Virus record (IMG/VR): IMGVR_UViG_3300023184_000501
Coordinates: 1 to 24,370 of that record
Length of the DNA stretch: 24,370 nucleotides
Direction: 5' to 3' (one strand)
Source: a virus
Within the stretch, counting starts at the first letter, position 1. Each line of letters opens with the position of its first letter. The notes beneath the pieces were generated by a model that was not told where the DNA came from, did no database searches, and saw nothing but the letters and a program-made list of their open reading frames with translations. A program made the translations under genes and the position numbers. This document shows positions 2,931 through 16,821 of this stretch, piece after piece.

Positions 2931-3176
2931 TCAGACTCCTTGTGCAGCTTGTGCCGCCTTATAAGCCGCCACCACAGCCGCCGTATGCGTTGCCTTGCAG
3001 ATAGCTTGGACACGGACATCCTCGGCGCTGTAGTCATCGCCGGGGGCAACGACATGGCGGTGGAACTTGCTACTAATTTCAATGCCATCTTCTTTGATAG
3101 CGGTTTTGGTGCGAACTTGAATGCAGCCGTTTTCAATGACTTCAATCAGATCGACAGATGTAATTTTTTCCAACAT
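2931..3176 (-). CDS. Small conserved phage protein beside the tailspike, 81 aa
   Basis: The ATG at 3176 is preceded by AAGGAA at a spacing of 7. The protein starts MLEKITSVDLIEVIENGCIQ and has a two-part look: strand-rich residues 1-45, including HRHVVAPGDDYS, then a helical C-terminus (VQAICKATHTAAVVAAYKAA). I recall close look-alikes next to tail-fibre genes in many aquatic phages, always without a function. The Asp-Asp-Tyr-Ser segment and the two His of HRH could suggest a binding site, but no enzyme motif is complete. Its stop lies within the ribosome binding region of the next gene, so the two are probably translated together. Confidence 0.75.
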   Translation of the reverse strand: MLEKITSVDLIEVIENGCIQVRTKTAIKEDGIEISSKFHRHVVAPGDDYSAEDVRVQAICKATHTAAVVAAYKAAQAAQGV

Positions 3177-3255: not shown

Positions 3256-5205
3256 TTACAAAAGTGGCAAAACAGAAACCGTTGTGTTGTTTAAAGACAT
3301 AACAGATTCAATTTCAAAATAAACAGAACAATTCACATTTGATGTAACTTGCAAAGTTCTTGCATACAAACCAACAATTCCAGAAGCAATTGACCAAGTT
3401 AATGCAATATCGGTAAGCGATCCCGTGTGGGCGGCAATTGCATTTACTACCGTTATGGCTGAACTACAAATTTGGTTGTTGTCAGACCAAGCTGCGGTAA
3501 AAATAAATTCTCCACCAGCAGTTGCCGTGTCAGTTGTTGAATTGTTGTAATACGCTGACCATTTAACCTTGTAATAACCTTGGGTAAATTCTTGGCAAAA
3601 CAAAGAAACACTTGTAAGAGTTGCAGCAGTCAAATTTTTTGACCCGCGCCACATTACATCCGCGCCCTTAGTAGATGCAATTCTAGAAATATTAAGTTGC
3701 TCCGCGCCGCCAACTACGTTGTTCTGAACTTGGGCTACAAGTTGGCTACCATAAACAATCTTGTTGGTAGTTCCATCATTGGTTGCACTGACTGTGTTGT
3801 TTTTAATTCTGACAATTGAATTTACAGTATTTTCAACTTTTACGCTTTCATTTCCAAGCGTTGTTAAGAATGCGCTGTTGTCTGATATGTCAACAGTTTT
3901 ATTTCCTGTTTTAACAGAGAACAATGGGCCACCGCAAGAGTTGGCGATAACGTTATTGTTTATGATTTGACAATATCCAGCATTTCCCACGGCTAATGGG
4001 TCGTAAGGCGTTACCGCAATCCCGTAAGAAGTCAAATTACCAAGCGAGACGATGTTTCCCTCAATATTGGCAATCATTTCGTTGGCGTTTGTGTTGCTCT
4101 CAACAAAAATTCCAAAATCTGCTGCGCCTCCTCGCACTGTATTTTTAGTTACGTTAACTAAAGTGCGTTCGCTTGTTTGGTCTTGTACATAAATTGGAAG
4201 AATTTCAGTTAATCCAGTTTTGTAGATATTTTTCAGAACGTTTCCAATGATCGTGACATTTGGAAGCATTGAAGCTGCGTTGTCAACTAGATATACAGAA
4301 ATGCCTTTATAAAAATCATAAGGCGCTGCCAAAACAGTGCTTGGATCGCACTCAACATAGTTGTTGGCAATCAGAATGTCGCTGACTTTGGTTGTTGTGT
4401 TCTCGTAAAAAATGCCATGCAGCCGATCTTGAATACACACATTATCTGTGCAGACAACACCAAAGCCATCATGGAAATCAATACCTTTGCGATAGTTGCG
4501 GTAAGTGTGGTTTTCCGTGACTAACAAATCTTCGTTAAAGCCGCCAGTGTTTGCTGAAAATCCATACCCTGTGCCACCATCCAAAACATCTCCGTTGTAC
4601 TCAAGTTGGCAACCACGAATCGTAAATGCTTTTTGGTAGTCAGCATAGCACCCCGATTGCATATTGTTATGCAAGTAACATTCTTCGATACTATTTCGCA
4701 AAGACAATGCTGGTGCTGTGCTTATGAATTGCACACCAGTACAGTTAAAGCCAGTTACTTCTATTCTGCGAACAAGTGTGTCATTGCAGTCTTTTATAAA
4801 TAGCCCCGAAACCACGCCAAAATAAGGCGACCCTGGAACATAGTATGTGCCTGTGTAAACAAGCGAAAAATCTTCATACCGCGCACCATCAATGCCTTCA
4901 AGCACAATGGCACATTCAGACCCATCATAAACTGGTGAGGGCATTGGTTGCTCTTTGGTGTAAGTGATAGTGGTAATACCTATACCGTCCCCAACGATGC
5001 CGCCAATAGTTGCAGGTGCAACCACTTGATTGTCTAATTTGACGCTGCCTGTTGGCACATATAACAGTTTGCCACCAGTACAAGCATTAAGAGCCAATTG
5101 AAAAGCAGCAGATGAATCTGCTACTCCCGTCATGTCAACACCATAATCTTTTGCATTGATAGCTGCGCTATCAATCATCGAAAAAGTGACTTTAGTCAGT
5201 GACAT
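3256..5205 (-). CDS. Tailspike-like protein with pectate-lyase-type beta-helix
   Basis: The 649-residue protein opens with INAKDYGVDMTGVADSSAAF (about residues 16-35), then a TGGKLLYVPTGSVKL segment. This is the classic start of pectate-lyase-superfamily tailspikes, which bind and often cut surface polysaccharide. Residues about 80-510 show many short Asn/Val/Ile-rich rungs (for example IIGNVLKNIYKTG and IANNYVECD) expected of a right-handed parallel beta-helix. Residues about 525-649 look like a separate strand-rich C-terminal domain, possibly for trimerisation. No head-binding domain precedes the helix; that domain is encoded separately at 6315-6800. AAGGGA overlapping the previous stop serves as the ribosome site. 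The gene is visibly AT-richer than the head genes. The substrate and catalytic residues cannot be named. Confidence 0.85.
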   Translation of the reverse strand: MSLTKVTFSMIDSAAINAKDYGVDMTGVADSSAAFQLALNACTGGKLLYVPTGSVKLDNQVVAPATIGGIVGDGIGITTITYTKEQPMPSPVYDGSECAIVLEGIDGARYEDFSLVYTGTYYVPGSPYFGVVSGLFIKDCNDTLVRRIEVTGFNCTGVQFISTAPALSLRNSIEECYLHNNMQSGCYADYQKAFTIRGCQLEYNGDVLDGGTGYGFSANTGGFNEDLLVTENHTYRNYRKGIDFHDGFGVVCTDNVCIQDRLHGIFYENTTTKVSDILIANNYVECDPSTVLAAPYDFYKGISVYLVDNAASMLPNVTIIGNVLKNIYKTGLTEILPIYVQDQTSERTLVNVTKNTVRGGAADFGIFVESNTNANEMIANIEGNIVSLGNLTSYGIAVTPYDPLAVGNAGYCQIINNNVIANSCGGPLFSVKTGNKTVDISDNSAFLTTLGNESVKVENTVNSIVRIKNNTVSATNDGTTNKIVYGSQLVAQVQNNVVGGAEQLNISRIASTKGADVMWRGSKNLTAATLTSVSLFCQEFTQGYYKVKWSAYYNNSTTDTATAGGEFIFTAAWSDNNQICSSAITVVNAIAAHTGSLTDIALTWSIASGIVGLYARTLQVTSNVNCSVYFEIESVMSLNNTTVSVLPLL

Positions 5206-5214
5206 ATTTATCCC

Positions 5215-6303
5215 TTAAACTTGGTATGTTGCGCTGAAGTAAATTGCAACAGTTGCACCAATTGCACCAACGGCATTAACTTGGCTTGAGAAAGCATCAA
5301 CGCTTCCACCAGCACTTAACGTGCCGTTAAAATAAACCCCTGCGGTATCTGATGCAACAGCATACGGTAAACCGCCACAAATCGCACCCGCTGAAGTACA
5401 CGCAATAGAAGTTGCCCCGTCAACTTTTCCTCTTATGGTTACTAATCTACCCACTTTGGTGTACGTCCCATTTGAAGTAAATGCACCAACAACAGTAAGC
5501 CCTGCGCCCTGTGATGGTGTCCAGGTACCTTCTTCATAGTCAGCCAACAACTCACTAGTCATGCCAGCAGGATGGCTTGTTATGGAAAAATCAATGCCTT
5601 TGCCTGATGTGCCAATGATTAAATTGCCGTTGTCTATCCGAATATCACCGCCAACAACATCCAATTTTGCTGTTGGGCCAACTGTGCCAACACCAACACG
5701 GCTGTTTGTTGCATCTGTGCAAAACAAGTTAGCGTCTGTGTCGCCTTCAATTCGCACGTTAAAAATAGCACCAATTTCGTTTATCACCAAATTGGTCGTG
5801 CCGATAATCATCTTCTCGGTAGATGCGCCAGCCGTTGCAGTCTCAAAGTGAATCTGGCCCTGTTCGGTAGTTGAGGTCGGGCTGAGAATGGAGCCGTGAA
5901 TCAGTGCATACTGCTGCTTATTGCCTGCGCTGTCTTGGCCGTTGAACTCAATCTCGCCAATTGTGTCGGACGCTGCGGGGCTGGCTGAGTTGCGATACAA
6001 GTCAAGCAGTGGGCCAGCCGTTGCCCCAGCGTCTGTGCTGTTGAGGGTTACATTAGAAAAGTTGCCATCGCTGCCACCTTCAACCCGCTGCCAGACCGCG
6101 CCGTTATAGACGATCCAGTCGCCTGCACCGAAGAACAACAAGATGCCGTCAAATGTCTGTGTGCCTGCGGTGCTGACCACATAGTAGTCACCCTTTGCGC
6201 CAGTGCCATCTGCAAGCGTTGGCGTGTTGGTGCTGGCATTCCACGTGCCCTTGTAGTTCAGCGCACCAATGGCGTTGGTGATGGATGAGACTGTTTTTAG
6301 CAT
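5215..6303 (-). CDS. Tail fibre protein, 362 aa
   Basis: Residues about 14-78 contain LNYKGTWNASTNTPTL, GDYYVVSTAGT and GDWIVYNGAVWQRVEGG, a Trp-rich repeatable module like carbohydrate-binding modules found in many phage fibres. Residues about 80-240 are strand-rich and include TNSRVGVGTVGPTAKLDVVG, a phrase typical of fibre shafts. The C-terminal part has DYEEGTWTPS and GTYTKVGRLVTIRG, a common fibre tip domain, ending in IYFSATYQV. No S74 intramolecular chaperone is present. The gene follows the head-binding adaptor by 11 bases with AGGAG, and precedes the beta-helix spike by 9 bases. It probably forms part of the host-recognition apparatus attached through the adaptor. Confidence 0.82.
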   Translation of the reverse strand: MLKTVSSITNAIGALNYKGTWNASTNTPTLADGTGAKGDYYVVSTAGTQTFDGILLFFGAGDWIVYNGAVWQRVEGGSDGNFSNVTLNSTDAGATAGPLLDLYRNSASPAASDTIGEIEFNGQDSAGNKQQYALIHGSILSPTSTTEQGQIHFETATAGASTEKMIIGTTNLVINEIGAIFNVRIEGDTDANLFCTDATNSRVGVGTVGPTAKLDVVGGDIRIDNGNLIIGTSGKGIDFSITSHPAGMTSELLADYEEGTWTPSQGAGLTVVGAFTSNGTYTKVGRLVTIRGKVDGATSIACTSAGAICGGLPYAVASDTAGVYFNGTLSAGGSVDAFSSQVNAVGAIGATVAIYFSATYQV

Positions 6304-6314
6304 TCTTGTTCTCC

Positions 6315-6800
6315 TTAGAACACAAATTCAATAATCGAAGTGTAGGGCGGCGCCTGGCTGAATGTCACATTACCGCCAGCATATGTGTAAGTGTTCTGAT
6401 TCTGGTATACGCCATTGATGAAAATAGCCGAGGGCACAAACGACACAGGGAAAATTGTCTGCACGCCATCGCCAGTGGCATCACTTACCACAGCGCCGCC
6501 GCTGAAAGCATTGTCGTTCAGCGAGGTGTAGACCACGCTGCCTTTGGCATCAAGCACCTGAATGCTGTAGTCGGTGGTGGTGTAGAACCGTGTTGGCGTG
6601 CCCTGGTAGACCGGATAACCGCCCAAGGTGCGGATGGGCTGCACAGCAGGGATGGCCAGTGCTGAGTCCCAGTAGACCGCAATTTGGTTAACCTGGGGGC
6701 TTAGGTTGGCTGTGCCGATCCAGATGTAGCCATCGTCCAGCGGCTGGCCGTCAGCGCCAGCGAATGCTGGGTATGGCGGTCTGATTGAGAGTGCGGACAT
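6315..6800 (-). CDS. Tailspike head-binding adaptor, 161 aa
   Basis: Residues 1-95 resemble the P22 tailspike (gp9) N-terminal head-binding domain. Key parts are DGYIWIGTANLSP (P22 has KIYIGKIDTDP), QIAVYWDSA, QPIRTLGGYPVYQG and the TDYSIQVLDAKG region. Residues about 103-161 form a second small strand domain (DGVQTIFPVSFVPSAIFING, then VYQNQNTYTYAGG) of a kind common in phage fibres. In P22 the head-binding domain is fused to the enzymatic beta-helix; here the protein ends after the small domain and two separate receptor-binding genes follow. I infer that it attaches to the tail hub and carries the fibre and/or spike. The start overlaps the previous stop by one base (TAATG). Confidence 0.85.
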   Translation of the reverse strand: MSALSIRPPYPAFAGADGQPLDDGYIWIGTANLSPQVNQIAVYWDSALAIPAVQPIRTLGGYPVYQGTPTRFYTTTDYSIQVLDAKGSVVYTSLNDNAFSGGAVVSDATGDGVQTIFPVSFVPSAIFINGVYQNQNTYTYAGGNVTFSQAPPYTSIIEFVF

Positions 6801-9172
6801 TACTGGTTCTCCTGGGTGGATTGTCGGCCTGTTTGGATTCCTGTTTGGATTACAGATGTTAAACGCTTGAGCAATGCAGCTTCCTCTTTGCTTCCTGTAG
6901 CGGTCTGTGGTATTTTAATCAGCAAGTTGCGAATTGGTGCTGATTCATAAATTCGAGCAGCTACTCCTACGCTACCAGCTGCTCCAAGTGTTGCAAGGAA
7001 CCCAAGCAAGCCACCGCCAAAAAAGCTGGACAGTGCCGCAGCACTGACGGGAATTGCGGCTTGCACGCCTGTGGGTGGTGCTGCTGCGGCCTCAGATGCG
7101 CGTTTGGTGATGTTGAGCACCCTGGTGAGTCCTTCAATTTGTTTTAGGTCATCACCATTAAAAAACACGCCCACAGATGTGCCAAGACGTTTGACTTCAT
7201 TGGCAAATTTGTCTGGTGATACAACAGTTCCTTCAGCTACGTCTGCCGTTGCTTTTTCTGCTGCGCGAGCAAGAATTGCAGCTCTGGCGCTTTCGCGTCC
7301 TGCTGGAGTTAGGCTTGCATAAAGTTGCCTTACTTCGCTGGGTTTTTTGCTAAAAAGCATGTTGGCAATTACTTCTGGTGTCTCATCACCACGCCTGAGC
7401 ACTGATTTCAATGTGCTCATGTCAAGTTCACCAGCCAGATCAGACAATCGTTTGTTCGCCACTTTATACTTTGTCACATCACGGCGTTCACCAACTTGAG
7501 TGATAAACGCTTCCATATCTTGCTTGAGTGGTTTGTAAATGCTGGACAAGGCTTTTTCACCAATGCCACGAACAGATGCCAATTCTGGAGCCTTAAAACT
7601 TTCTCCGATTTGTTTGCGCAGTGTTTCAACATTGATCAAATTCTGATCTTGCAATGCAGCTTTCCAGTCGGTCAAGCGCTCAATAATTGGCGCAACTTCT
7701 TGAGTTTTTAGTCCTTCCAGTTTGGCAATTTGATCATCAATAGCTTGCACTGTTTTGGTCATTGGCACTGTGCCAGTCTCGCCAAGACGTTCAATAACTT
7801 CTGTCTTCAAGCCGGTGTATTTTGTAAGATCAGCACCACGTTTGGTTGCCAAGTCCTTCATCACATCGTCCGCTGCTCTGGCAGCATCATCGGCTCCAAA
7901 TTCGCGCAACACATTACGCACAGCCTCAATGCGCTCTGTCTGTTGAGCCTGACGTATGCCACCAGTTCCTGCGCCTGGAATACGCTCGCCAATGGTTTGC
8001 AACCATTTCGACGCAAAGGTGCGGGGTGGCACCACATCGCTGGTCATGAGAGTAATGCCTGCTTGCCTTGCGGCCTCAATGTCGGATGGCAATTGCCTTG
8101 CTCCCGCAACGGGTGGCGCTGCAGGCGGTACAGGTGGCGCTGCTGTTGGCACTTGTGTTTCAAAGGTTGGCTCAACCCGTGGCGCTGCAGGAGCAGGGGC
8201 AGGACGCGCCATAACCCTCTGTGCGCCGCCTTTGACTGCTTGGACTACTGGTGGAACCACTCGCTGAATAATCTGCCCTGCTGGGCCTAGAGCGCCTGCC
8301 AATGCCACTTCACCAACGTCTGCCAGACCCGTGCCACCGCCTGTTGCCGCTTGGCTGGCTTCGATGGCTGTTTGAGTTGCGCCAGCCTTCATGATTGCGC
8401 CAGGAATAGTGGCTGCTCGGCCAGCGGGTGTGAATGCTGCTGCTGTTGCTGCCCCGCGTGGAATATCTCGTGCGGTCAAACCTGGCTCAATAACGTATTC
8501 TTTGCCATCTGTCGGTGAGCGTAAAAATACGGTGCCTTGTTGGTCTAACCGATAAGTCAAGCCAGGGAAGTTAGCAGCAAAAATCTTGGCACGCTCTTCA
8601 GAGCCAGCCATCAACCCGCCGAGTGCCGCCTTCAGCAAGCCAAAAGACATTTGGTTGGCTTCTGGCATATCGTAGATTGTTCGCTTTTCAGCAAGTGCCG
8701 CAGCAACTTCTGGAGATGCAGCACGCCTACTACCTGTCACAGACTCAACCAAGCCCTCAAAGAAACCCAACTGTGGTGGCTTGACAGGGGTTGCAGGGGT
8801 TTGTGATGCCAGCCATGCCTCTGGTGAAACTGGGGCCGATGCTGGGGCTGCTGCCGGGGCTGCTGCCGGGGCAGAGGCTGCGGAAATTGATGGTAAGGCA
8901 CCAATGTCTACATTGACGCCCTTGCGAGCCAATTCTTTGACGATTGCGACAACATCACCTGCCGCCCTAGGATTGCCAGCTTGCTGTTGGCCTTGAGCCT
9001 TTTGCAATTCTTGCATCAGGATGGGAATGGCCTCTTGATCTCGGGCAGCCTGCTCGGTTGGCGTCACTCGTGCCCCTGGCATCCCAGGTGCTGCTACAGG
9101 CGCGGCAGGAGCTGCTACAGGCGCAGCAGGTGCTACCTGAGTCTGTGATGCCAGCCACTCTTCTGGGCTCAT
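6800..9172 (-). CDS. Large ejection-type protein (gp16-like position), 790 aa
   Basis: The start at 9172 gives an ATGA overlap with the previous gene and begins MSPEEWLASQT; an upstream TTG-type start at 9208 is less likely. A near copy of this opening, SPEAWLASQT, recurs at about residue 116 after an Ala/Pro-rich linker. The rest is Ala-rich and helical, with long charged coils in the C-terminal half (for example KTVQAIDDQIAKLEG) and a Gly/Ala hydrophobic stretch near residue 720 (SSFFGGGLLGFLATLGAAG) that could insert in a membrane. As the third and largest of three consecutive such genes between tail hub and tailspike, it matches the place of P22 gp16, a protein injected with the DNA. Sequence identity to gp16 is not claimed. 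Confidence 0.75.
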   Translation of the reverse strand: MSPEEWLASQTQVAPAAPVAAPAAPVAAPGMPGARVTPTEQAARDQEAIPILMQELQKAQGQQQAGNPRAAGDVVAIVKELARKGVNVDIGALPSISAASAPAAAPAAAPASAPVSPEAWLASQTPATPVKPPQLGFFEGLVESVTGSRRAASPEVAAALAEKRTIYDMPEANQMSFGLLKAALGGLMAGSEERAKIFAANFPGLTYRLDQQGTVFLRSPTDGKEYVIEPGLTARDIPRGAATAAAFTPAGRAATIPGAIMKAGATQTAIEASQAATGGGTGLADVGEVALAGALGPAGQIIQRVVPPVVQAVKGGAQRVMARPAPAPAAPRVEPTFETQVPTAAPPVPPAAPPVAGARQLPSDIEAARQAGITLMTSDVVPPRTFASKWLQTIGERIPGAGTGGIRQAQQTERIEAVRNVLREFGADDAARAADDVMKDLATKRGADLTKYTGLKTEVIERLGETGTVPMTKTVQAIDDQIAKLEGLKTQEVAPIIERLTDWKAALQDQNLINVETLRKQIGESFKAPELASVRGIGEKALSSIYKPLKQDMEAFITQVGERRDVTKYKVANKRLSDLAGELDMSTLKSVLRRGDETPEVIANMLFSKKPSEVRQLYASLTPAGRESARAAILARAAEKATADVAEGTVVSPDKFANEVKRLGTSVGVFFNGDDLKQIEGLTRVLNITKRASEAAAAPPTGVQAAIPVSAAALSSFFGGGLLGFLATLGAAGSVGVAARIYESAPIRNLLIKIPQTATGSKEEAALLKRLTSVIQTGIQTGRQSTQENQ

Positions 9173-10770
9173 TGCATGACCCCTTGGGCTTTGAGGTAGT
9201 CTCTCCATTGCGTATCAGTGAAACCAGGTGGCCGTGTGTAAGTCTGTCCTCCCACGGTTGCGCTGGTTGGTAATGGTGGCGCTTCTTGACCAAACACGTT
9301 TTCAGGATTGAGCTTGTAATTCTTGACCACTATGCCAAGCGCCTTCTTGTCGTCTACTGCTTTTTTCTGTGCAGCGTCCAAATATTGCTTGGCCAGATTG
9401 ACATACTCTTGGCGCTGGTTTGAGTTCAGTGAAAACAGTTGGCCGCTTTGGAATTTTTGAGCTTGGTTAGCAAGACGATCAAAAAGCCCAGCGGTGTCAC
9501 GCGCCGTTGCGAATTCAGTCTCACGCACCACTGAGCCTGGATCAAGCATCTTCATAAATCCAGTGATTAACGCAATGTCACCTGGGCCTGTTTTGGCTTT
9601 GGCAGACAATTCGATGTTGGAGAAAGTAGACCCCAGTTCGCCATAAACCTTGGTGCGGCCTTGATATTCCTTGCGTAGCTTTTCTTCCTGCTCAAATTTC
9701 TTGGCTGGATCAAGATCACCATTCTCAAGCGCTGCTATTTCCAGAACAATCTTGGCTGTCTCTTGACCAAGTTTCTTGGTTGTTGCCAATGCCTGATTTG
9801 TCTGTGCGGTTGTCAGACCAAGAGTTGCGGCTTTTGCCTTTAAGTCTGCTATTGCAACTTGAGGTGCAAATTGTGCTTCAATACGCGCTTTTTCTGCTTC
9901 TGCTGTTGCACGTTTTGCATCAGCTGCTGCTTTTTCTGCCGCATTGGTGGCGGTAGCCTGAGCCGTAATTGCATCGGCAATGCCTTTATCTGCTTTTGCC
10001 CTTGCCTCAATCAATTCGCTTGGTGCTTTTGCCACTCTCCTGGATTCTTCACCCTCACTTGCAGCAGTTAATGCCCTTTCCTTTGCAACCTGTGCAGAAC
10101 GTAAATCTGCCTCTGCTAGTAACCGAGAAGGGGTATCTGCTGCTTCGGCTACTTTTTTCTGTGCATCCGCTACAGCTGCACTTGCATCGGCCACGGCTTT
10201 GTCCAGTGTTGGTTTTGCCAGTCCAGCAGCTCTACTTTCTCCACCTAATTTAATTGCATTCTCAATTACTTTTTCACCACCTGGAATTTGCGAGATGGTG
10301 AAGCCAAAGTAATTTTCAGTTGCTTGCGGATTTTCTTTGGCCACATCACGCCATGTCTCCAAAAACTTGGCGCCAGCTTCGTCACCTGAGTTGCGCTTAG
10401 CATCAATTTGTTGGTCCATCAGACTAATGGCAATCCCTGGCTTGTTAGACTTAAACGCTGAAAACACCCGACTGGCTTGGTCAAGTGCTGTTTTCTGACG
10501 TTCGCTATCCAACATGCCAAAGCTCTCACGCACAGCCTTAGCCTGCGTTTCAGGCAGCATCATGGACAGGTTTGCGTAATCAGCAGCAGTGGCCTTTGGG
10601 CTTTGCAGCTTAGCAAACCCTGCTTGGATCAGCTTCTGCTGTTCTGCTTGCCGAACTTGCTGCTGCTGTTTGAATTGCGCGTCTTGGATGCTTGTGCCAG
10701 CTTGGAAAGCACTCAAGAATGCTTGTGTTGGGTCGGCAATTTGAACGCCGTAGTCAATAGGTGCTGGCAT
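9169..10770 (-). CDS. Ejection-type coiled-coil protein (gp20-like position), 533 aa
   Basis: The N-terminus (MPAPIDYGVQIADPTQAFLS) is typical of phage internal proteins that follow the gp7-like gene. Residues about 25-50 are Gln-rich, 60-180 helical, and 188-350 a long Ala/Lys/Glu coiled coil (AVADAQKKVAEAA, AEKAAADAKRATAEAEKAR). The C-terminus holds TYTRPPGFTDTQW and KAQGVMQ, a short motif frequent at the ends of such proteins. P22 gp20 (471 aa) sits in the same place and is ejected with the genome. Overlaps of one base (TAATG) with the previous gene and 4 bases (ATGA) with the next make the three a tightly coupled set. Role inferred from order, composition and size. Confidence 0.75.
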   Translation of the reverse strand: MPAPIDYGVQIADPTQAFLSAFQAGTSIQDAQFKQQQQVRQAEQQKLIQAGFAKLQSPKATAADYANLSMMLPETQAKAVRESFGMLDSERQKTALDQASRVFSAFKSNKPGIAISLMDQQIDAKRNSGDEAGAKFLETWRDVAKENPQATENYFGFTISQIPGGEKVIENAIKLGGESRAAGLAKPTLDKAVADASAAVADAQKKVAEAADTPSRLLAEADLRSAQVAKERALTAASEGEESRRVAKAPSELIEARAKADKGIADAITAQATATNAAEKAAADAKRATAEAEKARIEAQFAPQVAIADLKAKAATLGLTTAQTNQALATTKKLGQETAKIVLEIAALENGDLDPAKKFEQEEKLRKEYQGRTKVYGELGSTFSNIELSAKAKTGPGDIALITGFMKMLDPGSVVRETEFATARDTAGLFDRLANQAQKFQSGQLFSLNSNQRQEYVNLAKQYLDAAQKKAVDDKKALGIVVKNYKLNPENVFGQEAPPLPTSATVGGQTYTRPPGFTDTQWRDYLKAQGVMQ

Positions 10771-13251: not shown

Positions 13252-13658
13252 GTCAATACCTGATTTGATCGCACCCTTGCGGTTTGGTTTGCATACGGCA
13301 GGATGCCAACCACATCGTGCGCCAGCTCGATATTATTACGCACAGGCGCCAGCGCCAGCAAGTCAAGTGCTTGGGCTAAGCGCGGGATGGCATCCAATGC
13401 CTGCTGCACCTTGGCGTTGAGAACAGCGTCTTCAACTGCGGTATCTTGAGCCAGCGCACTGATCTGAGCCAGTGCATTGTTGGCATTTGCTGCCGCATTG
13501 TCTGCCTGGTACTCAAAGTCAGTGCCGATGATGACTTGTATCGTGTCAACCGTGGAAAACAGCAACTCGAACTGCCTGATCTGTTGCTGGTCGGTCAGGA
13601 ACGCCGCAAGCTGATCTCGCGTCAGATTGAGTTTGCGGGATGTTGGTGCCGTGGCCAT
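13236..13658 (-). CDS. Phage structural-region protein, 140 aa; possible needle or plug candidate
   Basis: The N-terminus carries RKLNLTRDQLAAFLTDQQQI and RQFELLFSTVD, a phrase I know from several phage tail-region proteins of unknown role. Residues about 48-105 are an Ala/Asn/Gln-rich helix with coiled-coil potential (DNAAANANNALAQISALAQD, KVQQALDAIPRLAQALDLLA). The C-terminus is shorter and mixed. It directly follows the gp10-like gene, overlapping by one base, which in P22 is the place of gp26, the trimeric tail needle. The helix content is compatible, but the protein is shorter than gp26 (233 aa) and lacks a recognisable needle N-terminus. I give the needle role low weight. Confidence 0.7.
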   Translation of the reverse strand: MATAPTSRKLNLTRDQLAAFLTDQQQIRQFELLFSTVDTIQVIIGTDFEYQADNAAANANNALAQISALAQDTAVEDAVLNAKVQQALDAIPRLAQALDLLALAPVRNNIELAHDVVGILPYANQTARVRSNQVLTWLTI

Positions 13659-15067
13659 CAGAACGCCAGTGGCTCAATCTGGGCCTCAAGACGGATGAAT
13701 GACACATGGGCATCGCTGTCGCCACGGAATCGCTGGATGCGCCAGTTGCGCATGTTGCCCTGCTGGAACCAGGCCAGGCGCTTGTTGGACCCTGTAGTGC
13801 CCACGCTGATGCTGCGCTCTTGGCTGTAAGCCTTGCCATCCACGCTGTAGCTGGTGCTGATCTGGGGGTTTGTGCCAATGGCCACGCTGCCGGTGAGACT
13901 GACCAGCTCCAGCTCGTTGAAGATGGCCCCATTGCTTTCGTTGTAAACGATCAGCGTGCCAAACTCCCAGCGCACCTGCTCGCCCCAGTGGTAGCCGGTG
14001 TCCTGCACAAAGTAGCCGATGGAGGTGGATTGCGGATCTCCAACAAGCCACTTGTCGTAGGCCCAGACGATGTTGCGTGCGCGGTACTGTGCAAAGCCTG
14101 CCAAAGTCGTGGTCAGGGTAAACCAGACCTGCTCGCCCAGTGCCTCAGATGCCGAGGCGTCATAGACCACGGTGCGGTCTGGCAGGTGGACGTAGAGGTG
14201 CTGATGCGCCTTGTCGTTGCGTGCTTCGAGCTTGACCGTGGCCAGCTGCGCCTCGGTGTAGTTCAACAGCAGGTTGTCAATCTCCTGCGTGCTGATTTTC
14301 TGGGTGGTTGCGGCTGCGCCCACGTAAATGCCGGGGGCTTCGTTGCGGCCACCGCCCAAGAAAGCAATGGACTGGATGAAGACGCAGCAGGCTTGCGTGC
14401 CGACGACACCCTTTTGGATTTGAGCGCCCTCGATGCGTGCAAAGGGAAACAGGTCGCCGCCCACGTTGTCAAACACCTCGATGGTGTTGCGGTTGAGCGC
14501 ATAGACCTCGTTTCTCAACTTGAGCAATGCCACGACCGGATCAGGATCGGCCTCTGAGCTGCCATACTTAAACGGATCAACAGCCAGCGGGTTGGTCAGC
14601 TCGGTGACGACCAGAAACTCGCCATCGGTGGTCATGAAGTAGCCGTCCACCCAGACCACATCAAGCACGATGCCTAGGTCAGGGTCTGTCACTTGCGTGA
14701 GGGTGGATGCCACTGGGTCCCAGTAGTACAGCCTGGTGCCCGATGTAATGGCCAGCAGGTCAAAGCTGTAGTCGAATGTCACCAACTGAGTCACAGGCCC
14801 ACCTACATCGCCCAAGATAGTCACAGCGCCGTTGCTGGCCACCTCGACTAGCTTGGTGCCCATGACACGGTAGCAGTCGCCTCGCCAGTTGATGCCACCA
14901 CGGTCAATGCCTGGGCCTGTGCCATTGGCCACAATGCCGTCTCCTGGGCGCAGGAATCCGTTGCTGATGCCAGACTTGATGGGCACCGGCACCATGTTGA
15001 CCGGGTAGCTGGTACGCAGCTCTGGCGTGGTGTCAGCGTAAATGCCGTTAAGGATAGGTATTTGCAT
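13658..15067 (-). CDS. Tail hub / DNA stabilisation protein, P22 gp10-like
   Basis: At 469 residues it is almost the length of P22 gp10 (472). Matching stretches include LRTSYPVNMVPVPIKSG near residues 17-33 (P22: DYLPVNMLATPKE), IQKGVVGTQAC at 217-227 (P22: VQKGIAGTYC) and HLPDRTVVYDAS at 294-305 (P22: HLPRHVLVYDASSS). In P22, gp10 hexamers close the portal-gp4 channel, hold the packaged DNA and carry the tailspikes and needle. The repeated strand pattern suits the known beta-propeller-like fold. It starts 3 bases after the small basic protein at 15071 and ends by overlapping the next gene by one base. Confidence 0.9.
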   Translation of the reverse strand: MQIPILNGIYADTTPELRTSYPVNMVPVPIKSGISNGFLRPGDGIVANGTGPGIDRGGINWRGDCYRVMGTKLVEVASNGAVTILGDVGGPVTQLVTFDYSFDLLAITSGTRLYYWDPVASTLTQVTDPDLGIVLDVVWVDGYFMTTDGEFLVVTELTNPLAVDPFKYGSSEADPDPVVALLKLRNEVYALNRNTIEVFDNVGGDLFPFARIEGAQIQKGVVGTQACCVFIQSIAFLGGGRNEAPGIYVGAAATTQKISTQEIDNLLLNYTEAQLATVKLEARNDKAHQHLYVHLPDRTVVYDASASEALGEQVWFTLTTTLAGFAQYRARNIVWAYDKWLVGDPQSTSIGYFVQDTGYHWGEQVRWEFGTLIVYNESNGAIFNELELVSLTGSVAIGTNPQISTSYSVDGKAYSQERSISVGTTGSNKRLAWFQQGNMRNWRIQRFRGDSDAHVSFIRLEAQIEPLAF

Positions 15068-15336: not shown

Positions 15337-16329
15337 TTAGGCAACTACCGCACCACGGAATCCAACAACCCACCAATCAGTTCCAGCAAACTGAAGCGTT
15401 GCCGAATCTCCAACAGCATTGAAAGTGATTGTGGTTGCGCTGCCAAGGTTGGTAGGAGTCAGAATACCAGTGTCGCCGCCAGCGGCTTCTGCAACATAAA
15501 TAACTGTCTTCAGCTGGCCCTGCGCTCCATCTGCAAGGGTCAAAGCATTTCCTGCTGCTGTGGAAGTGAAAGCAGTGGCAAGGCTTGTGATATTGACAGC
15601 ACCAGGACCACTTAAAGATTGAACCGTTGCCGATGCCCCAGTGCCACCGCTTGCGACTGCTAGAGCGCCTGTTACGCCCGTTGTCAACGGCAACCCGGTG
15701 CAATTGGTAAGCGTTCCTGATGTTGGTATCCCAAGAATTGGCGTTACCAAGTTCGGGCTGGTTGCAAATACCAGCAACCCTGTGCCGGTCTCGTCCACCA
15801 TTGCGGCACGCAGATTGGCACTGGTTGGGTTGTTTAAAAAATCTTGGATTGCGGCATTAAATCCTGCAGTTTCGTTCGTGATGTTGTACCAACTATTGGT
15901 TGCCAAATAGTAGCGATACCGAACAGCAGCGCCAGCGGTAAGGGTAGAGACATTCCCAAAGATTGCAGCCGCGCCATTCAGCGCAATGGTGAACGCTGTG
16001 ATTGTTTGGGTGCTGGTTATCAGCACTTCAGTGCCATCGGGCACGCCAGTGTTCAGCGGCAGGGTAACGGTGCCGGTGGCCAGTGTGCCAGCAGGCTGGA
16101 TGAGCATCCACTGCTGCTCGGCCACAGGGGTGGGCACGGTAATGTTGAAACCTGCCCCTGGCGTGTACAGGTTGGTGGCGACAGTCGGGGCTGCGAATGA
16201 GGTTTGGAAGTAATCCAGCAGCGTGTTGACCGACATCTTGCGAGCATCGCCGTTGTTTTGATCGTACACGGGAATCTGGGCAGACCCATTGACCTGGCTG
16301 ATGCTGGCGAGTTGGTTGATGGTTGGCAT
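15337..16329 (-). CDS. Fibre- or decoration-like structural protein, 330 aa
   Basis: The start at 16329 has GAGGAG 7 bases upstream. Residues 1-45 (MPTINQLASISQVNGSAQIP, NNGDARKMSVNTLLDYFQ) match a phage fibre-type N-terminus I recall from other genomes. Residues 50-150 are strand-rich. Residues 155-240 contain INNLxx-type helical spacers and ILGIPTSGTLTNCTG with LAVASGGTGAS, a Gly/Thr-rich repeat phrase typical of fibre proteins. The C-terminus (TLQFAGTDWWVVGFRGAVVA) is a compact strand segment. P22 has no such gene between gp4 and gp10. It may be a head fibre, a decoration protein or a second adhesin. Function inferred from composition. Confidence 0.75.
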   Translation of the reverse strand: MPTINQLASISQVNGSAQIPVYDQNNGDARKMSVNTLLDYFQTSFAAPTVATNLYTPGAGFNITVPTPVAEQQWMLIQPAGTLATGTVTLPLNTGVPDGTEVLITSTQTITAFTIALNGAAAIFGNVSTLTAGAAVRYRYYLATNSWYNITNETAGFNAAIQDFLNNPTSANLRAAMVDETGTGLLVFATSPNLVTPILGIPTSGTLTNCTGLPLTTGVTGALAVASGGTGASATVQSLSGPGAVNITSLATAFTSTAAGNALTLADGAQGQLKTVIYVAEAAGGDTGILTPTNLGSATTITFNAVGDSATLQFAGTDWWVVGFRGAVVA

Positions 16330-16338
16330 GTTGGCTCC

Positions 16339-16821
16339 TCAATTGAATTCAAGTGGTCCGTCTTGACCGGCAAGGACTGGAAAGTATGGGCGGCGAATAA
16401 ATGGATCGTCGTAGACGCGCCACGGTTTGTTCCCTGACCCTGCTGGCATGGTGCCTGGGAGTTGTTGTTCAACTGGCATGGCTGCGCGGGACAGCAGGGT
16501 GTTGTACGACTCTTTGGCCGTCATCTTGGTGTCGGCCATAACCTGCTTGCCGTAGGACGGGGCCAGCTTGACGCCAAGGTTGGTGTAGATGGCCTCGTTG
16601 GAGCTGTCGGGCACGTTGGTCTGCTCGTCCAGGTCGCTGTCCTGGGGGCTGTTCGGCAGCGGGTAGCCCAAGCGGATGCCCAGAGCGTTCCAGGCTGCCA
16701 GCATGGTGTCGAGCCTGCGCAGAGCCGACTGCAGTTGCTCAGGGGTCAGATCAAAAACGTAGGATGCCAGGCCAATCTCTTCAAAAGCCTGCGTGACAAA
16801 TTGGCGCTTTGTCCATCCCAT
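16339..16821 (-). CDS. Head completion / tail accessory factor, P22 gp4-like
   Basis: This 160-residue protein has the P22 gp4 (166 aa) layout. A helical N-terminus (RQFVTQAFEEIGLAS) is followed by a second helix with SALRRLDTMLAAWNALGIRL (P22: DAVDDLEAMMAEWYQDGI), then a middle helix EAIYTNLGVKLAPSYG (P22: SAVFHNLACRIAPDY), and the C-terminal GTMPAGSGN (P22: SRMPTGSGN). In P22, twelve gp4 copies bind below the portal and start tail assembly; muralytic activity has been reported for P22 gp4, but I see no basis to claim it here. ACAGGAG precedes the ATG, one base after the previous stop. Confidence 0.9.
   Translation of the reverse strand: MGWTKRQFVTQAFEEIGLASYVFDLTPEQLQSALRRLDTMLAAWNALGIRLGYPLPNSPQDSDLDEQTNVPDSSNEAIYTNLGVKLAPSYGKQVMADTKMTAKESYNTLLSRAAMPVEQQLPGTMPAGSGNKPWRVYDDPFIRRPYFPVLAGQDGPLEFN

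Follow-up and report, generated by a model that had tools for sequence, protein, structure and literature searches.

The 161-residue protein encoded at positions 6315..6800 (minus strand) of the viral sequence analyzed here is clearly a stand-alone tail adaptor, and we consider it probable, at roughly three chances in four, that it combines a P22-type anchor with a C-terminal socket on which the nearby beta-helix spike is docked by a constant N-terminal tag. The window, namely the whole stretch of 24,370 bases that was analyzed, is a virus record of IMG/VR and belongs to a family of lake-water phages. The N-terminal P22-type head-binding domain would sit on the short tail at its P22-like hub, and the C-terminal DUF4183-like domain would form the socket that grips the spike by its tag, whose pattern is M[SA]LTKVxxSMIxGA; the anchor could then stay as it is when a spike gene with this tag is acquired, so that the tip would be swappable.

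The gene order on the minus strand is P22-like, with terminase, portal, scaffold, coat, a gp4-like adaptor, a gp10-like hub and ejection proteins; the adaptor, fibre and spike genes stand after the ejection proteins and the lysis genes come next. The adaptor gene lies directly downstream of the gene for a gp16-like ejection protein (6800..9208, minus strand; phrog_770 DNA transfer protein, E 4e-68), the end of which its start overlaps by one base. In P22, tailspike gene 9 likewise follows gene 16. The P22 gp10-like tail hub (13658..15067, minus strand; PF11134, E 7e-31; PHROG head closure Hc3, E 1e-93), which is found in 17 of the 20 longer relatives, is the expected seat of the anchor, with binding to the hub predicted, and the P22 gp4-like head-tail adaptor (16339..16821, minus strand; phrog_637 head-tail adaptor Ad3, E 2e-31) is its expected neighbor. 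(Of note, a 330-aa protein starting with MPTINQLASISQVNGSAQIPVYDQNNGDARKMS is encoded between the gp4- and gp10-like genes [15337-16329, minus strand]; it has no convincing match in Pfam or PHROG and might be a tail needle or a second fibre.) A scan of genome contigs for prophage relatives, sought as a clue to the host, found none.

Residues 1-95 of the adaptor (6516..6800, minus strand) constitute a head-binding, or virion anchor, domain of the P22/Sf6 type. PF09008 (Head_binding) matches residues 22-91 with 29.6 bits (Pfam cut-off 24), and searching the PDB with the adaptor family profile retrieves Sf6 gp14 and the head-binding domain of P22 gp9 with E values of 3e-6 to 1e-4, the matches including 1lkt, 8eb7 and 7sg7. 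When the AlphaFold model of the adaptor (mean pLDDT 84) is searched with Foldseek, the best PDB matches are again P22/Sf6 head-binding structures (1lkt, 2vky, 7sg7 and 8u1o; E 1e-4 to 1e-3, prob 1.00). A poorly ordered linker at residues 96-101 (pLDDT < 50 in the model) is followed by a single small beta domain of about 57 residues, with which the gene stops. This DUF4183-like domain (residues 103-161; 6318..6494, minus strand), the proposed socket, scores just below the Pfam cut-off for PF13799 in the window protein itself (22.8 vs 25.1), and PF13799 matches all 120 aligned adaptor relatives at E <= 0.01. Its profile also matches the K1-specific Klebsiella depolymerase 9k4a (E 6e-7, in two repeats) and, among solved structures, the "tail adaptor protein" of Klebsiella phage Kp7 (7y22_e, E 3e-5), while the whole adaptor model weakly matches CBA120 TSP4 (1-335) in Foldseek; no direct match to T4 gp10 was present among the profile and fold matches of the C-domain. 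Such profile similarity, together with the co-conservation with the spike tag presented below, makes a docking role of the C-domain probable. The adaptor contains only the PF09008 and DUF4183-like parts, with no receptor-binding or enzymatic domain of its own. Pfam, PDB profiles and the modeled fold thus bear out the earlier note, which had described a P22-type head-binding domain plus one small strand domain and then the end of the protein, with anchor and receptor-binding parts lying on separate genes: the adaptor ends at 161 aa and the spike has its own open reading frame.

The best 80 IMG/VR relatives were scanned for the state of this gene. In 79 of these 80 nearest relatives, that is, in all 79 that are readable, the adaptor is a separate gene of 160-163 aa, and in the 80th (L061) the adaptor frame is interrupted by a stop at its codon 5. 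Because these 79 relatives and a second group of phages (see below) have separate genes, the window adaptor gene is not an assembly error, and an assembly break or a frameshift producing a falsely short gene is ruled out. The window adaptor is not, therefore, an anchor and beta-helix in one chain as in P22 gp9-like tailspikes. A fused homologue does exist (BFVD A0A6J7X7Q1, 655 aa, 44% identity over 170 alignment columns), and since fused homologues exist the data give no direction to the split: the expression "split off" used previously goes too far, as either form could be ancestral. Other stand-alone anchors were also encountered. Sphingopyxis phage VSN-002 (L085, 5980-9310) encodes a protein of 200 aa in which an anchor resembling that of the window (43% over 82 residues) comes without a DUF4183-like domain; separate proteins of 157 and 753 aa follow it. 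Pseudomonas phage AH02 (L087, 5974-7952) has a stand-alone 190-aa PF09008 protein (80.9 bits) and, in the next gene, a protein of 468 aa that bears the annotation major tropism determinant, apparently pairing a P22-type anchor with an Mtd-like adhesin.

The spike is a beta-helix protein of 649 aa without an anchor of its own (3256..5205, minus strand), the gene of which is preceded by AAGGG and starts 9 bases past the end of the fibre gene. It matches PF13229 above the cut-off (39.6 bits) and PF12708 just below it (26.8 bits). Pfam finds no head-binding domain in the spike, and there is no room for one because the beta-helix family match starts already at residue 16. Residues 1-14, MSLTKVTFSMIDSA (5164..5205, minus strand), form a conserved N-terminal tag, slightly divergent in the window, which we propose as the plug. 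The tag generally reads LTKVSYS[M/L]IxGA, with a fuller form M[SA]LTKVxxS[M/L]IxGA (or a near variant), and the following NVxDYGA part of the spike start corresponds to the first turn of the beta-helix. A tagged spike gene is present downstream of the adaptor in 123 of 123 loci of both groups, these being the loci in which more than 2.5 kb follows the adaptor, leaving room for a spike. The strict pattern is found in 63/64 and 57/59 of these loci, and the remaining three have SLI for SMI; the tag always stands at the gene start and never internally (149 tag-holding loci). Past residue 60, 60 non-redundant spikes of the first group fall into 54 unrelated clusters, with 20 of 1770 pairs alike. 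This sharp border between a constant start and a variable remainder could suggest a DNA recombination linker that serves gene exchange and has no role in the protein, a reading which we regard as very improbable, given that Vibrio phages belonging to other families have related tags and that most tag codons vary freely at the third position (diversity about 0.4-0.7) with the residue kept, the Lys and Met codons being the exceptions. The silent variation around constant residues argues that the tag is kept as protein and largely rejects, for the spike start, a linker acting through DNA only. The proposal of a stand-alone adaptor with easy swapping of the tip hence gains support from the comparison as far as the spike is concerned, since a constant tag heads otherwise unrelated spikes. 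On these sequence grounds the spike is likely to dock on the adaptor; we infer the physical docking, the trimer geometry and the enzymatic activity of the spike.

A scan with the adaptor of DSL-LC05, a metagenome-assembled genome, retrieved a second group of 78 readable loci, in which the adaptors are again separate genes, of 166-171 aa. DSL-LC05 and the IMG/VR loci of this group (L096-L175) have the same three-gene set, C-domain and spike tag as the window but differ from it in having a Pam1/Pan3-type anchor and a KISAL-type fibre start. Their adaptors have no PF09008 match in Pfam; the anchor matches instead the "tailspike head-binding domain" of cyanophage Pam1 (7eeq, E 5e-15) and also the Pan3 tailspike (9vyg). 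The second group consequently has the window-type C-terminal domain joined to the known anchor type of the cyanophages Pam1 and Pan3. Alignment of the two anchor types with hhalign gave no significant match, but they may share a fold, since the fold search with the window adaptor model finds the Pan3/Pam1 head-binding structures too. Within each group the anchor and the C-domain are both about 74-81% identical, whereas between the groups the anchor is only ~20% and the C-domain 52-56% identical, a pattern indicating that something common to both groups holds the C-domain constant.

An independent pairing of tag and domain was found when the tag consensus was searched in phages, which returned 31 records, 28 of them Vibrio phages. 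The anchorless spikes of five Vibrio loci (L088, L089, L090, L092 and L095) start with TK[VT]xxRMI[DE]G followed by NVxDFGA, or close to this, and the same loci have a second, larger spike carrying a GDG..GxxQ..APPxx domain that aligns with the window C-domain. The tag is absent from all five larger spikes, three of which have a different helix-like stretch in its place, R[TS]xxxRFADVxNVKD (for example ARTFANRFADVVNVKDFGA). In the larger spike of Vibrio phage 5P1a (L090) the domain comes after a PF09008 anchor, so that this phage resembles the window in joining such an anchor to the same kind of domain and in having a second spike with a related tag; unlike in the window, its first spike is fused to the anchor, which makes the arrangement an anchor-branch rather than a stand-alone adaptor. 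A scan of IMG/VR with the 5P1a anchor found no relatives. Klebsiella phage phiBO1E was discarded as a tag carrier, as only the NVMDFGAVGDG part matched and its N-terminal peptide is different.

These distributions bear on another explanation, according to which anchorless spikes keep the tag for folding, or as the neck of the trimer, and not for docking, the spike attaching by another surface or to another protein. The location of the tag directly before the first beta-helix turn would suit such a function, as would the different stretch found at that place in three of the five larger Vibrio spikes. However, the tag is missing from all anchor-fused spikes examined, beta-helix ones included, as seen in MW202475, PfAn1 and Aeromonas phage 4_4512, where the fused spike is of P22 type, and in PBR31 and P26218, where the fused protein is of Pam1 type; moreover, the L081 spike keeps the tag although the sequence that follows has no beta-helix start, and tag and C-domain are found together with both anchor types as well as in Vibrio phages. 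We thus hold a neck or folding element to be improbable and docking on the adaptor to be the better explanation of the tag.

The fibre, of 362 aa (5215..6303, minus strand), has PHROG matches to minor-tail and tail proteins and begins 11 bases after the adaptor end, behind AAGGAG. The fibre model starts with a helix of ~14 residues, predicted at low confidence, and continues into a strand domain rich in Trp, the N-terminal half of the model as a whole being of low confidence. Residues 255-362 (5218..5541, minus strand) form a C-terminal beta-sandwich (pLDDT mostly 74-90) with weak resemblance to siphophage receptor-binding heads (Foldseek E 0.01), and might be such a head. No head-binding domain was detected in the fibre by Pfam, by the model with its low-confidence N-terminal half or by fold search, and hhalign of adaptor versus fibre gave a probability of 0.1%. 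The search for a hidden head-binding fold in spike or fibre with Pfam, fibre fold search and hhalign was therefore negative, in agreement with the earlier note; the carbohydrate-binding-like module proposed there was not confirmed, for no curated carbohydrate-binding family of Pfam matches the Trp-rich part.

The fibre starts with MLK- in 73/76 loci of the first group and with a KISAL-type sequence in 62/63 second-group loci having the fibre next; judged from these sequences, the fibre start goes with the adaptor group and not with the C-domain that both groups have in common. Four loci (L125, L130, L135 and L168) have a swapped order, with the adaptor followed by the spike and then by the fibre. 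(Eleven second-group loci that might be taken for fibreless do not form such a class: at least 4 of them have the fibre after the spike, and others are cut short.) The fibre of L060 has a hybrid N-terminus, in which the first-group start MLKTVTNSINASQI is joined to the second-group stretch ALPASTTPLAGSEVLPI, suggesting that fibre bodies are exchanged under a group-specific start. Could the adaptor then carry both fibre and spike, in a true branch of two adhesins like K1-5/SP6 gp37 with its two spikes? The adjoining genes in a single transcription unit and the conservation of fibre starts inside each group would fit, but we find it rather unlikely: the adaptor has one small C-domain per chain, whereas K1-5/SP6 gp37 has T4gp10 D2- and D3-like parts (PMC6872550), the fibre starts differ between groups despite the shared C-domain, and the position of the fibre gene varies. 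Branching of two adhesins from one anchor, as envisaged earlier, is consequently the less likely arrangement, and attachment through the C-domain of the adaptor is retained for the spike, on account of the tag, the presence of the C-domain on two anchor types and its likeness to known tail adaptors, and is less likely for the fibre.

The P22 tailspike is the textbook one-chain spike. P22 gp9 and Sf6 gp14 share with the window the homologous head-binding domain, the P22-like hub and the gene position, but combine anchor and beta-helix in one chain and have neither docking domain nor tag. Stand-alone adaptors are already known in other phages, the apparent novelty here being the P22-type anchor base. 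K1-5/SP6 gp37 is a stand-alone adaptor and KP34-viruses of group A have a truncated anchor plus depolymerase (Latka et al. 2019, PMC6872550); comparison with these systems, which the earlier note had called for, indicates that the window would fit the published scheme of anchor, T4gp10-like domain and conserved peptide (PMC6872550), with a P22-type anchor. The gp37 protein of K1-5/K1E/SP6, with spikes gp46 and gp47, is similar to the window system in being a stand-alone adaptor with a docking part and short conserved spike peptides, yet its anchor is not of P22 type, two T4gp10-like subdomains carry the two spikes, and the peptides, of 7 and 11 residues, have sequences other than the window tag (PMC6872550). 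KP34-viruses of group A likewise have a short anchor, one C-terminal docking fragment and a spike with a conserved N-terminal peptide, and the KP34-type Kp7 tail adaptor (7y22) is the one matched by the window C-domain profile; they differ in their T7 gp17-type anchor (~300 aa), distant spike gene and peptide, MALxxLV (PMC6872550). Our search of the literature, conducted mostly outside subscription papers, turned up no account of a P22-type adaptor that stands alone.

More tentatively, the two groups might follow a shared plug-and-socket standard, in which one docking domain is set on at least two very different anchors, of P22 and of Pam1/Pan3 type, and one tag, present in hundreds of aquatic phages, gives access to a common pool of spikes exchanged across lineages whose tails differ, the fibre plugging in separately by its anchor-specific start. 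Since the P22 tailspike anchor is here separate and nearly constant and the tip almost fully variable, lake phages with anchor and tip so divided would document how host range changes in nature. Searching for the tag is likewise an easy sequence-based way to recognize anchorless spikes (candidate depolymerases) in metagenomes and to match each with its adaptor. In lake phages as well as in Vibrio phages, tagged spikes are often followed by a small protein of 80-97 aa (MALKK..., ...YEHLKTLPEF...), for example in L083 (8617-8910, phrog_18037), L088 (5492-5776) and many first-group loci, which is possibly an assembly partner; after the window spike there stands a small gene of another kind (2931-3176, phrog_6228).
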